From Isoptericola halotolerans (lineage in GTDB: Bacteria > Actinomycetota > Actinomycetes > Actinomycetales > Cellulomonadaceae): a DNA stretch of 64,000 nt. This document shows positions 30,547 through 34,752 of the stretch, piece after piece. A model generated the notes under the pieces. That model saw nothing but the letters and a program-made list of their open reading frames with translations. It was not told where the DNA came from and did not search any database. Position 1 is the first letter of the stretch. Each line of letters opens with the position of its first letter. The position numbers were made by a program, and so were the translations under genes. The DNA lies in NCBI RefSeq assembly GCF_003003075.1, contig NZ_PVTX01000001.1:372001-436000 (forward strand). The letters are read 5' to 3'.

Positions 30547-32163
30547 GGTGGCCGGCTGCCCAGCGGTCAGGTCGCGGGCCTGCTGGATGCCGGAGCGCTC
30601 CCCGAGCGGGATCTCGCGGATGAAGCAGATCGCCACCAGGGCGACCAGCGCCATCGGCACGGCGATGAGGAAGATCCCCGTGATGCCGTCGGTGTAGGCG
30701 TTGGCGACGACGTCGGCGACCGGTGCGGGCAGCTGCGACATGTCCGGCACGGCGCCGGCGGAGTCGCCCATGGCGGACGCCGGGACGCCGAGCCGTGCCA
30801 GGCCCGCGGCGATGTCGTCCTTGACGTTCAGCGCGAGGATCGCGCCGAGCACGGAGACGCCGACCGAGCCCCCGAGCGACCGGAAGAACGCCACGGTGGC
30901 GGTGCCCGCGCCCATCTCGCGGACGTCGAGCGTGTTCTGCGTGGCGAGCACCAGGTTCTGCATGAGCGCGCCCACGGACAGCCCGAGCCCGAACAGGTAG
31001 ACGGAGATGATGACGAAGCTCGTGTCCGTGCTGATGGTGGACATGCCGAACAGGGAGAGCGACAGCACCGCGGCGCCGCCGACCATGATCGCCTTGTAGC
31101 GGCCGGTGCGGGAGATGATCCGCCCCAGCACGATCCCTCCGAGCATGGTGCCGACGACCATCGGGATGGTCTGCAGGCCTGCCTCGGTGGGCGTCTTGCC
31201 GCGGGCCAGCTGCAGGTACTGCGACAGGAAGACGGCGGTGCCGAACATGGCCACGCCGACGGCCGCGGAGGCGACGATCGACAGCACGAAGGTGCGGTTG
31301 CGGAACAGGTGCAGCGGGATGATCGGCTCCGCCACCTTGCGCTCCACCAGCACCGCCACGGCGAGGGAGACGACGGCGGCCCCCACCATCGCGGCGGTCT
31401 GCCAGGACGCCCACGCGAACTGGTCGCCCGCGAAGGTGACCCAGACCAGCAGGAGCGCGACCCCGAGGGCGATGAGCGTGGCGCCGAGGTAGTCGATGGT
31501 GACCTTGCGCTGGTCCCGGGGCGGCAGGTGCAGGGTCTTCTGCAGCACGATGAGGGCCGCGATCGCGAAGGGGACGCCCACGAAGAACGTCCAGCGCCAG
31601 CCGAGGAACGAGTCCGTGATGACGCCGCCGAGCAGCGGGCCGCCGATCTGCGCGACGGCCATGACACCGCCCATGAGACCCATGTACTTGCCGCGCTCGC
31701 GCGGGCTGATGATGTCGGACATCAGGACGGTCGCCAGCGACATCAGCCCGCCGGCGCCGACGCCCTGCAGGGCACGGAAGGTGATCAGCGTCGTCATGTC
31801 CTGGGAGAACCCGGCGGCCGCGGCGGAGACCACGGTGATGACCAGGGCGACCTGGATGAGGACCTTGCGGTTCGTCAGGTCGGCCAGCTTGCCCCAGAGC
31901 GGGGTGGAGATGGTCATCGTCAGCAGCATGGCCGTGACGACCCAGGTGTAGGAGTGCTGCGACCCGCCGAGGTCCGCGACGATGCGCGGCAGGGCGGTCG
32001 AGGTGATCGTGGTGGCGAGCAGCGAGACGAAGACGCCGAGCAGGATCCCGGAGAGCGCCTCGAGGGTCTCGCGGCGCGTCATCGCCGGGTTGTCGTCGGC
32101 CAGGGCGTCGACGAGCGGTACGTCAGGATCGGTCGCAGGGGTGGAGCTGGTGGTGTCGGTCAT
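30538..32163 (-). CDS. DHA2-family multidrug MFS exporter
   Basis: 541 residues with 14 predicted membrane helices. The DHA2 (EmrB/QacA) pattern is clear: LDxTxVxTALP-like LLATTITSTALPRIVADLG in helix 1, GKLADLTNRKVL motif A, FRALQGVGAGGLMSLA, and PLLGGVITDSFLGWRWTFFVGVP motif C. A proton-driven efflux pump of amphiphilic drugs. It is coupled to the upstream marR gene by an ATGA overlap (32160-32163), so the regulator and pump are one autoregulated unit. Confidence 0.95.
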   Translation of the reverse strand: MTDTTSSTPATDPDVPLVDALADDNPAMTRRETLEALSGILLGVFVSLLATTITSTALPRIVADLGGSQHSYTWVVTAMLLTMTISTPLWGKLADLTNRKVLIQVALVITVVSAAAAGFSQDMTTLITFRALQGVGAGGLMSLATVLMSDIISPRERGKYMGLMGGVMAVAQIGGPLLGGVITDSFLGWRWTFFVGVPFAIAALIVLQKTLHLPPRDQRKVTIDYLGATLIALGVALLLVWVTFAGDQFAWASWQTAAMVGAAVVSLAVAVLVERKVAEPIIPLHLFRNRTFVLSIVASAAVGVAMFGTAVFLSQYLQLARGKTPTEAGLQTIPMVVGTMLGGIVLGRIISRTGRYKAIMVGGAAVLSLSLFGMSTISTDTSFVIISVYLFGLGLSVGALMQNLVLATQNTLDVREMGAGTATVAFFRSLGGSVGVSVLGAILALNVKDDIAAGLARLGVPASAMGDSAGAVPDMSQLPAPVADVVANAYTDGITGIFLIAVPMALVALVAICFIREIPLGERSGIQQARDLTAGQPATER

Positions 32164-32612
32164 CGGGACGGGGCCTCCTGGGTCACTGAGCTGATGGCGG
32201 CCGCGACGTTGCGGATCTGGGTGATGGCGTCGGTGAGGTCGGCCGCGGACCAGTCCGCGAAGGCCTCGTCGACGAAGTCGTCGAAGTAGCGGTCGGACTC
32301 CGCGGCGAACGCGTGCCCGGCGTCGGTGAGCTCGAGGGTGCGGGCGCGTCGGTCGGCGCGGTCGACGGTGCGGCGGACGTAGCCGGCGTCGACCAGGGCG
32401 CTGACCTGGCGGCTGGCGACGGAGGCGTCGACCCGCAGGGCCTCGGCCACCTCGCAGAGCTGGACCGCGCCGCGCGCCCGGACCATGCGCACGATGCCGA
32501 GCCCGGAGCGCGGCCAGTCGAGGTCGCGTGCGATTCGGGCCGCTGCCTCGCGCTGGGCGCGCGAGAGGGACTCGAGCGCTGCGACGAGTGCTGTGGAGGC
32601 ACGTTCCGACAC
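32160..32612 (-). CDS. MarR-family regulator of the MFS exporter
   Basis: 150 residues. Winged helix with GLGIVRMVRARGAVQLCEVAEALRVDASVASRQVSALVDAGYVRRTVDRADRRARTLELTDAG. GTG 32612 has AAAGGGG six bases upstream; ATG 32642 upstream in frame would sit on the predicted -10. It precedes and overlaps the exporter gene, and the operator at 32651-32665 within its promoter predicts negative autoregulation relieved by a drug ligand. Confidence 0.92.
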   Translation of the reverse strand: MSERASTALVAALESLSRAQREAAARIARDLDWPRSGLGIVRMVRARGAVQLCEVAEALRVDASVASRQVSALVDAGYVRRTVDRADRRARTLELTDAGHAFAAESDRYFDDFVDEAFADWSAADLTDAITQIRNVAAAISSVTQEAPSR

Positions 32613-32637
32613 GTCGACCCCTTTCGTTGCCTCGGGC

Positions 32638-32666
32638 ACCATATGATGGATGCTTGCGTCAAGCAA
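32638..32666 (-). promoter_or_regulatory. marR-mfs promoter with MarR operator
   Basis: On the minus strand TTGCTT (-35, 32661-32666) and TATGGT (-10, 32638-32643) are 17 nt apart. A perfect inverted repeat TGCTTG-ACG-CAAGCA (32651-32665) covers the -35 and spacer, the expected geometry for MarR repression. The region is less GC-rich than its surroundings. Confidence 0.7.
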
Positions 32667-32688: not shown

Positions 32689-32788
32689 CGAGGTAGTGCG
32701 GGGTTGCGCGAGGCAGTGGCGCTCGTGCCGAGGTAGCGCTGCGTTGCGCGAGGTAGTAGCTCGCGTCGCGAGGTAGTGGGCAGCCCAG
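32689..32788 (+). repeat. Left arm of phased repeat locus: five 20-bp units
   Basis: CGAGGTAG-like cores start at 32689, 32709, 32729, 32749 and 32769, exactly 20 bp apart. Four are CGAGGTAG and one is CGAGGCAG. The remaining 12 bp of each unit are GC-rich but variable. No plausible coding sequence or ribosome site lies here. Confidence 0.9.
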
Positions 32789-32803
32789 GGCGGTTCGGGT
32801 GCC

Positions 32804-32897
32804 GCCGGGTGGCGGGTCCCGTGCACGGTCGCGTTCACGGGCGCAGGGCGCCCTCCACTTCGGGACTGACGACCGTGCACGGGACCCGACACCCGGC
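32804..32897. repeat. Central long inverted repeat of the repeat locus
   Basis: A 28-bp stem with one mismatch pairs 32804-32831 with 32870-32897; its inner 18 bp (GGGTCCCGTGCACGGTCG and complement) are perfect. The 38-nt centre contains a nested 6-bp hairpin GGGCGC-AGG-GCGCCC (32839-32853). It could extrude as a cruciform or form a stable RNA hairpin. It is placed between two repeat arms of opposite orientation. Confidence 0.9.
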
Positions 32898-32905
32898 TTT
32901 GGCGT

Positions 32906-33065
32906 TCCCGCCCGGCGCTACCCCACGCCGTCGGGCACTACCTCGCGCCGCGCGCTGCTACCTCGGCGGGCGGGGCGCTACCTCGGGCCGGGCGTTGCTA
33001 CCTCGGCGGGCGGGGCGCTACCTCGGGCCGGGCGTTGCTACCTCGGTGACCGGCGCACTACCTCG
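32906..33065 (-). repeat. Right arm of phased repeat locus: eight 20-bp units, inverted
   Basis: CTACCTCG (the complement of the left-arm core) occurs at 32938, 32958, 32978, 32998, 33018, 33038 and 33058, with a decayed copy CTACCCCA at 32918; all are exactly 20 bp apart. Bases 32958-32997 and 32998-33037 are an exact 40-bp tandem duplication of two units, showing recent expansion. Confidence 0.9.
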
Positions 33066-33085
33066 GCGGGGGGCGGGGGACGACG

Positions 33086-33119
33086 ACGGCGGCCCGCCCC
33101 GGGAGGGACGGACCGCCGT
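33086..33119 (-). terminator. Probable terminator of the sugar transporter gene
   Basis: A 7-bp ACGGCGG/CCGCCGT stem (33086-33092 with 33113-33119) with GC-rich inner pairing lies 18 nt past the transporter stop on the minus strand. Confidence 0.45.
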
Positions 33120-33137
33120 GGCCGTGGCGAGGGTGGC

Positions 33138-34595
33138 TCAGACGCGGTGACGTACGTCCTCGGTCATGTCCTCCAGCTCCTTGCCCTTGGTCTCCGACAC
33201 CTTGAACCAGATGAAGAAGAAGGAGATCACGGCGAAGAGTCCGTACATGCCGTACGGAACCGCCGGGCCGAACGCCGACAGCATCGGTGGGAAGGTCAGC
33301 GTGATGGTGAAGTTCGCCAGCCAGTTGGCCGCCGCGCCGACACCCAGCGCCGCGGCGCGGATCCGGTTCGGGAACATCTCGCCCAGCATCACCCACATGA
33401 GCGGGCCCCACGTGGCGCCGAAGAAGACGACGAAGGCGTTCGCGGCGATCAGCGCGATGGTGCCCCACGGGTCACCGAGGGACAGCGTCGACTCGCCCGC
33501 GGCGTCGACCGTGGTGGTGCCCTGCGTGAACACCGCGGCCATGGTCAGCAGCGAGACCGCCATGCCGGCCGACCCGATGAGCAGCATCGGACGGCGCCCG
33601 ACCTTGTCGATGAGGGCGATCGCGATGAAGGTCACCGCGATGTTCGTGATCGCGGTGATGGTGGAGACGAGGAACGCCTGCGACTCGTCGAACCCGACCG
33701 CCTGCCACAGCGTCGTGGAGTAGTAGAAGATGATGTTGATACCCACGAACTGCTGGAAGATCGCCAGCAGGATGCCCACCCAGACGATGGACTTCAGGCC
33801 GAGGAACCCCTTGCCCTTGAGAGAGCCGAGGTCGGCGTTCTTCTCGTCGACGGCGATCGACCGCTTGATCTCCTCGATCCGGTCGTCGACGTCCTCCTGC
33901 GGCCCGAGCACCGAGGCGAGCACGCTGCGTGCCTCGCCGACGTCACCCTTGGCGACCAGGTAGCGCGGCGACTCCGGCATGCGCAGCGCCAGCAACCCGT
34001 AGACGACGGCCGGGACCGCCTCGACGAAGAACATCCACCGCCAGGCCTCCCAGCCCAACCACAGCTCCTCCGACGCGCCGCCGGCGCTGCTCGCCAGGAT
34101 CTGGTCGCTCAGGAGCGCGCCGAAGATGCCCACCGTGATGGCGAGCTGCTGCAGCGAGGCCAGGCTGCCGCGGATCGACGCCGGGGAGATCTCGGCGATG
34201 TAGGCGGGCGCGATGACCGACGCGATACCGATACCGATGCCGCCCAGGAACCGCCAGAGCGACAGGTCCAGCGCGGTCCAGGCCAGGGCGGACATCACCG
34301 CGGAGAACAGGAACAGGCCCGCTCCCAGCAGCATCACCTTGACGCGACCGATGCGGTCCGCGAGCCGGCCGGCGCCCCAGGCGCCCAGGGCGCAACCCAG
34401 GAGCGCGACCGCCACGACGAGGCCGGTGACCGTGGCCTCGAGCTCGAACTCACCCTCGATCGCCGACACCGCGCCGTTGATCACCGACGAGTCGAATCCG
34501 AACAGGAAGCCACCGACGGCGGCGGCGAACGACAGGCCGATCGCCTTGCGGTGCGCCGATCGTGCTCCGGCGCCGCTGGGTGCGGATGCGGTCAT
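33138..34595 (-). CDS. Sugar porter family MFS transporter
   Basis: 485 residues, 12 helices. Sugar-porter signatures: GFLFGFDSSVINGAV in helix 1, GRLADRIGRVKVM, PESPRYLVAKG after helix 6, QQFVGINIIFYYSTTLW in helix 7, and KVGRRPMLL. It resembles xylose/glucose/arabinose proton symporters; the exact sugar is not predictable. ATG 34595 has a GAGAGGAG site 7 nt upstream. Monocistronic; its 3' end faces the repeat locus. Confidence 0.94.
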   Translation of the reverse strand: MTASAPSGAGARSAHRKAIGLSFAAAVGGFLFGFDSSVINGAVSAIEGEFELEATVTGLVVAVALLGCALGAWGAGRLADRIGRVKVMLLGAGLFLFSAVMSALAWTALDLSLWRFLGGIGIGIASVIAPAYIAEISPASIRGSLASLQQLAITVGIFGALLSDQILASSAGGASEELWLGWEAWRWMFFVEAVPAVVYGLLALRMPESPRYLVAKGDVGEARSVLASVLGPQEDVDDRIEEIKRSIAVDEKNADLGSLKGKGFLGLKSIVWVGILLAIFQQFVGINIIFYYSTTLWQAVGFDESQAFLVSTITAITNIAVTFIAIALIDKVGRRPMLLIGSAGMAVSLLTMAAVFTQGTTTVDAAGESTLSLGDPWGTIALIAANAFVVFFGATWGPLMWVMLGEMFPNRIRAAALGVGAAANWLANFTITLTFPPMLSAFGPAVPYGMYGLFAVISFFFIWFKVSETKGKELEDMTEDVRHRV

Positions 34596-34752
34596 CACCA
34601 AACTCCTCTCGGGTCCCGGTCCCGGGGCCGTCCCCTGCATGCTAGGAGCGTTGCGCCGAGCGAGCACGGCGAGCGCCCGTGGCGATCCCCACAGGGGATC
34701 GGGCGCCCACCTGCGCCGTCGCCCGTCGCACCGGACCTGCGAGACTGGGCGG

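Follow-up and report, generated by a model that had tools for sequence, protein, structure and literature searches.

A family of 20-bp-phased repeat arrays at gene ends in Isoptericola and related genomes

A two-armed array between a MarR-family gene and a sugar transporter gene

The window, a stretch of 64,000 nucleotides from Isoptericola halotolerans, contains an array of short repeats in which two arms of 20-bp units are directed at a common centre (Table 1). This array belongs to a family of phased repeat arrays that extends across the genome. All five left-arm cores were observed at exact 20-bp steps (starts at 32689, 32709, 32729, 32749 and 32769, with the core at 32709 reading CGAGGCAG), as an earlier note on this DNA had described, and the 28-bp inverted repeat that it placed in the middle was recovered at its coordinates (32804-32831 and 32870-32897) with 28 nt per side, 96% complementarity and 38 nt between the sides. 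Eight cores had been claimed for the right arm; seven were exact copies of CTACCTCG (starts 32938 to 33058, units spanning 32938-33065), while the eighth and innermost (32918-32925) was, by eye, a degenerate core with 2 mismatches, CTACCCCA. The suggestion that all cores of an arm face one side of the DNA did not hold exactly, since B-DNA with 10.5 bp per turn makes 1.9 turns in 20 bp and the cores of an arm thus rotate by about 34 degrees from one unit to the next.

Table 1. Features of the array and its surroundings (positions within the window)
Feature	Position	Strand	Description
MarR-family regulator gene	32160..32666	-	longest ORF; 5' end toward left arm
Left arm	32689..32776	+	5 units of CGAGGYAG plus 12-nt linker, period 20 bp, directed at centre
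Central module	32777..32937	none	161 bp between both arms
Long hairpin of central module	32804..32897	none	28-bp inverted repeat with nested hairpin
Apical domain	32825..32880	none	CACGGTCG...GGGCGCCCTCCACTTCGGGA...CGACCGTG
Right arm	32918..33065	-	7 exact units and 1 degenerate inner unit, period 20 bp, directed at centre
Terminator-like hairpin, ordinary	33080..33125	-	between transporter stop codon and right arm
Sugar_tr (MFS) sugar transporter gene	33138..34598	-	3' end toward right arm

The codon-usage gene caller placed the start of the MarR-family gene at 32486, while Table 1 gives the longest ORF. The core word CGAGGTAG was present 19 times in the window versus 1.27 copies expected, and 0 of 100 shuffles held as many; 11 of the 19 sit in the arms and 8 are single copies within called genes. 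Computed RNA folds gave a minimum free energy of -77.4 kcal/mol (z -8.6) for the long central hairpin plus its edges, and -40 kcal/mol (z -5.9) for the terminator-like hairpin. A scan of the window with Rfam gathering scores returned tRNAs alone, leaving the array unmatched, and at E <= 1 two sub-threshold matches to miRNA-family hairpins were observed, both on the central hairpin.

Six full copies of the central module (134-161 bp, 94-100% identical) were found in the window genome, including the one in the window, and all six lay between a + arm and a - arm, with the likeness waning outward across the first arm units. As the six copies are near identical together with their inner units, part of the conservation reflects plain dispersal; the composite of module and inner units has been copied and so spreads by copying, while the arms as a class are independent of the module. 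The hairpin at the centre is distinct from the arms and constitutes a second dispersed element. Its apical domain had seven more partial matches in the window genome, on different lower stems, six of them armless and one (L331) with a two-unit arm. Five of these matches fell between convergent genes (two within one intergenic region), another separated two same-strand genes, and the last lay within a called gene. The apical domain, CGTTCACGGGCGC..GGGCGCCCTCCACTTCGGGA, tops stems of differing sequence that appear well paired (window 32825-32880, L331-L334, L341-L343, L200 and L201), and it seems to be a second dispersed element sitting in terminator loops.

Distribution and gene context of the arrays

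Within the window genome (3.85 Mb in 22 contigs) we counted 165 forward and 116 reverse phased core pairs at up to two mismatches, while a reversed-pattern control in the same genome gave 0 phased pairs. Exact triplets were found in 17 of 221 family genomes, with 11 of 18 genomes of the genus Isoptericola (G010 with 4 matches alone), 5 of 17 of genus g8 (1-6 matches each) and the single g12 genome (3 matches). Named records bearing triplets among the 80 loci listed were Isoptericola spp., Krasilnikoviella flava, Oerskovia flava and one Sphaerisporangium. Three further genomes of the genus (G002, G009, G012) carried a different core, CGAGTCAG, likewise repeated every 20 bp. The earlier note had held that absence of phased copies from closely related strains, together with a lack of transcription and of protein binding, would mark the array as a neutral tandem expansion; such copies proved plentiful in relatives.

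A generic scan for repeated 8-mers found period 20 in the sampled array genomes (the window genome, G009 and G012) and at most one period-20 match in each of six other genomes. True arrays were absent from the 300 kb scanned in each of four genus genomes (G003, G005, G008, G013), which indicates that the system is dispensable; period 20 came up in these scans only through a 10-bp tandem in G003 and a poly-C tract in G005. An intergenic 10-bp tandem, GGTCGGAGCA, was noted at L373 (559-640) of G003, which lacks phased arrays. Ten viral contigs matched the two-unit pattern; a scan of these for arms gave no facing arms, and a phage origin was rejected.

Gene context was determined for arms with three or more units, drawn from 162 loci (the window, L013-L113 and L124-L183). 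Duplicates, arms less than 300 bp from a locus end and arms without called genes on both sides were dropped, and 178 arms of 3 to 12 units were kept. Genes were called with a home-made codon-usage caller, so gene starts are uncertain. A same-strand gene preceded 150 of the 178 arms, and the contexts comprised 94 convergent, 56 tandem sense, 20 tandem antisense and 8 divergent arms. For 62 of the 150 same-strand arms the TAG of the core was itself the stop codon of the preceding gene, supplied by unit 1 in 48 cases, by unit 2 in 14 and by unit 3 in none. The remaining 28 arms came after an opposite-strand gene, as does the left arm in the window, which no same-strand gene precedes; 16 of these 28 faced a partner within 400 bp. 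Arms without a partner in tandem gene contexts were sense in 34 cases versus antisense in 4. Facing arms pointed toward each other, with L049 the sole exception noticed among the inspected loci.

Core conservation, dialects and helical register

Constraint was measured on interior units having exact cores on both sides, 555 for CGAGGTAG and 51 for CGAGTCAG. Per-site mismatch in the CGAGGTAG units was 1.1% in the core versus 31% in the linker, and in the CGAGTCAG units 2.5% versus 29%. Within the CGAGGTAG linkers, mismatch was 8-19% over the first three bases, 35-47% over the middle six and 27-34% over the last three, while the A and G of the core TAG were invariant across all 555 units. Spacing between exact cores was 20 bp in 884 of 910 cases for CGAGGTAG and 89 of 90 for CGAGTCAG. 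Core and spacing were thus conserved beyond the linkers, the pattern expected of a protein-binding array, and some arrays were recent, identical tandem copies. A core of 8 bp, linkers of 12 nt that end in species-specific bases and the many loci per genome also distinguish the units, judged by repeat form, from a CRISPR array with its repeats of about 24-48 bp and unique spacers, in agreement with the earlier note.

The three nucleotides that follow the core were mostly species-specific, with GCA in chiayiensis and AK164, CGC in two MAGs and TTC or TCC in K. flava, and were mixed within the window genome and halalbus. Another conserved hairpin loop, containing GAGAGCAGAGGGAGCGCAGCGACCGATTCATTCGAGCGC, was observed at array centres of the CGC-dialect genomes (L077, L112, L184-L186), and in L021 it lay beside the array. 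Phased pairs of CGAGTCAG numbered 55 in G002, 201 in G009 and 249 in G012; elsewhere, G027 and G047 each gave one match, and the control pattern matched 1-2 times in each of three genomes. Arms of the CGAGTCAG dialect occurred in mixed orientation, had TGA stops embedded and showed no polarity in tandem contexts (8 vs 6). We also considered CGAGATAG as a major dialect and rejected it, since of 58 genomes just 3 had pairs, 5 in total, and one of these 3 also had 2 control matches.

One convergent locus, between rlmB and a DUF4032 gene, was compared across relatives. In those lacking CGAGGTAG rows it held 20-bp rows of CGAGTCAG or CGGGTCAG in G012, G009 and G002, a 20-bp row of CGAGATAG in G010, a hairpin of CGAGACAG in G005 and, in the array-free G013, a different hairpin that looked ordinary by eye. 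No array was found at this locus in G003 and G008, or in the carriers G004 and G014. The CGAGTCAG and CGAGACAG forms at the locus contained no sense stop. A two-protein tree placed G017 (CGAGGTAG) and G002 (CGAGTCAG) as sisters with a support of 1.0, and the array-free G008 was nested within carriers; the two sisters bear different cores at this one shared locus. At the 3' end of rlmB in G028, from another genus of the family, we observed a short repeat, GGTCCGAGCNGTCT, with a period of about 14 bp (L207).

Grouping the 150 upstream genes by orthology gave 25 groups whose array sites recur between species. Genes of G009 and G012 that had an array possessed an array-bearing ortholog in 17 of 23 cases, versus 6 of 24 for genes without one (Fisher p=0.0012), in a comparison of genes with an ortholog in CGAGGTAG loci where the loci had been picked for having arrays and one gene (in L216 and L305) entered twice. 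A repeat word that varies by species while many sites stay fixed points to a putative DNA-binding factor.

The distances between the innermost facing cores grouped near multiples of about 10.5 bp. A first set of 47 loci gave R=0.50 at 10.2 bp, and a newly fetched set of 23 loci, taken alone, gave R=0.70 at 10.5 bp, with 10 of the 23 at 10-14 bp. After orthologous loci were merged, which left 52 groups from 70 pairs, the distances gave R=0.54 at 10.5 bp, and 0 of 4000 random sets equalled this value. The signal was retained for gaps above 20 bp (32 groups, R=0.50 at 10.5 bp, p=0.0005). Rival periods also scored, namely period 9 in the full set (p=0.0008), period 13 for gaps above 20 bp (p=0.012) and, for gaps above 30 bp (24 groups), period 14 (p=0.005) next to 10.5 bp (p=0.013); a 20-bp peak was absent from the full set. 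With each gap value taken once the grouping was not significant (R=0.29, p=0.054). The mean phase, from the 23-locus phases and the 8-bp core, places core centres about 1 bp or less from whole turns.

Interpretation and relation to known systems

We propose, with a probability of about one half, that the arrays are a lineage-specific family at gene boundaries, bound by a putative cooperative DNA-binding protein whose recognition code changes fast. Each arm would be a head-to-tail row of recognition sites of about 11 bp (the 8-bp core plus the 3-nt extension), one per 20 bp, which a putative polar, cooperative protein would line head-to-tail. The two protein assemblies would meet or bridge across the centre, and bridging would require that opposing cores lie whole helical turns apart. 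A likely effect would be to seal the border between adjacent genes, most of them convergent, either as a block to read-through or as a separation of chromosome segments; it is from array position that we infer this role in transcription or chromosome organisation. A shift in the specificity of the protein would lead to arrays being re-written in situ and so to species dialects. A polar cooperative protein bridging in helical register would thereby account for core, spacing, phase and dialect. The earlier note had also suggested a binding array for an oligomeric protein, and this gives the best fit to the core and spacing constraint and to the phasing of facing arms, while the protein itself and its role are what we infer. 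We hold more tentatively to the full boundary system, in which the protein would coat arrays at the 3' borders of many genes, bridge facing arms in helical register and co-evolve with the arrays so fast that words differ between sister species even where the chromosomal site is shared; it might be seen as the bacterial equivalent of a moving recognition code. If true, the genus would possess a genome-wide layer of gene-boundary marks with dialect switching between sister species and many positions fixed, a natural experiment on how such a protein changes together with the many sites it binds, and array DNA could serve as bait for an actinobacterial chromosome or termination factor.

It is doubtful, in our judgement, that the arrays are instead REP/BIME-like selfish or neutral repeats, which would spread by copying and tandem expansion, be tolerated solely at gene 3' ends, be kept alike through gene conversion and have no function for the host. 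With REP/BIME elements (GTAG superfamily, RAYT-associated) the arrays share dispersed extragenic copies, opposed pairs, a 3' and convergent bias and TAG stops; PMC3733652 describes REPs as extragenic, biased toward 3' and convergent positions and supplying TAG stops from their termini, and we observed the same of the arrays, in gene-end position for 150 of 178 arms and in stop supply for 62 of those 150. The near identity of six copies of the central module with its inner units, the recent identical tandem copies in certain arrays and the lack of arrays in 300 kb of each of four genus genomes are also consistent with selfish spread. However, plain tandem copying should hold linkers like cores, and the linkers were about 28-fold more divergent per site; exact spacing, helical phasing and orthologous sites across dialects would likewise be unexpected. 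The array unit differs in being non-palindromic, with an asymmetric core and a variable linker in strict 20-bp direct-repeat rows, and its core varies between sister species at one site. The Y1 (RAYT) transposase, PF01797, was detected in 0 of 36 family genomes including the window genome, with a positive E. coli control, and its matches in 2 of the 58 genomes searched both lay outside the family. We therefore rejected REP/RAYT membership on the palindromic unit as well as on the Y1 transposase. Even if selfish, the arrays would represent an extragenic repeat class with a non-palindromic unit and no Y1 transposase in the family, in which the linkers drift but the core and the spacing are kept.

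Paired arms fold very stably as RNA, reaching -105 kcal/mol over 139 nt at L282, and could act in the 3'-UTR as a long hairpin that terminates transcription or protects mRNA 3' ends. The sense orientation of most CGAGGTAG arms to the upstream gene, the excess of sense over antisense among partnerless arms in tandem contexts and the ordinary-looking hairpin in place of an array at rlmB in G013 would agree with such an element. We nevertheless consider it unlikely. Allowing two mismatches per core, 85 of 178 arms had no partner within 300 bp, so the array class is not mainly an RNA hairpin and the hairpin that intrinsic terminators would show at each site was lacking at these arms; the template of a large RNA hairpin envisaged in the earlier note is thus disfavoured. 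Mirrored linkers matched at 6.82 of 12 positions (56 arm pairs, 130 linkers), slightly better than off-register linkers of the same locus (6.22) or partners permuted between loci (5.93 +/- 0.14), but most would pair poorly. Certain single linkers matched at 12 of 12 positions, some of them at unequal places in the two arms, which suggests that units are exchanged between arms. The CGAGTCAG dialect lacks tandem-context polarity, helical phasing at 10.5 bp is a property of DNA, and in the window the transporter has its own normal hairpin before the right arm, so simple termination is insufficient there.

An uptake-sequence-like watermark, whose dialect would follow a pilin receptor as in Neisseriaceae, is highly improbable. 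Uptake sequences are placed at gene ends, a point of likeness, and to our knowledge none form 20-bp-phased rows; they are single copies, whereas the arrays are phased rows. In the window alone, all eight single copies of the core were genic and 0 were intergenic. Short-core dialects and dispersed copies do recall the Neisseriaceae case, for which PMC3630211 describes a short core with dialects between related taxa. We give still less credence to fail-safe translation stops, for which the 20-nt period would offer TAG in three frames over three units. The stops supplied by cores in 62 of 150 sense arms and the invariant A and G of TAG would be in line with this use, yet the third unit never supplied a stop, frame coverage would be had without an exact 20-nt period and without 10.5-bp phasing, and we dropped this reading because relatives carry stop-free cores at the shared rlmB locus.

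No description of the array layout was found in the open-licence literature on the core, on repeats of Isoptericola and related genera, on tandem stops and on RAYT, or under roadblock, direct repeats, uptake dialects and nucleoid occlusion. Like the arrays, plasmid iterons consist of direct repeats about 20 bp long that share a conserved core, but the arrays occupy many chromosomal gene-end loci. BldC has a promoter role and a repeat spacing of about 10 bp, both unlike the arrays. Cooperative BldC multimers on direct repeats are described for Streptomyces in PMC5859096. The arrays resemble sites of such head-to-tail binders in their direct repeats and in a cooperative multimer, the latter only putative for the arrays. 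Noc and SlmA nucleoid-occlusion sites are short palindromes with a ter-free distribution, while the arrays are asymmetric phased rows at gene ends. PMC4331003 and PMC3573117 describe the Noc and SlmA sites as scattered. The arrays are likewise scattered and thinner toward the terminus. In four complete genomes (G017, G001, G009, G012), with the origin side set by dnaA, 23 of 124 listed clusters fell in the third opposite dnaA versus 49.5 expected, a depletion that is confounded by gene content and by cluster counts that are lower bounds in three of the four genomes, and that gave, by genome for the clusters listed, p = 0.028, 0.004, 0.0003 and 0.086.
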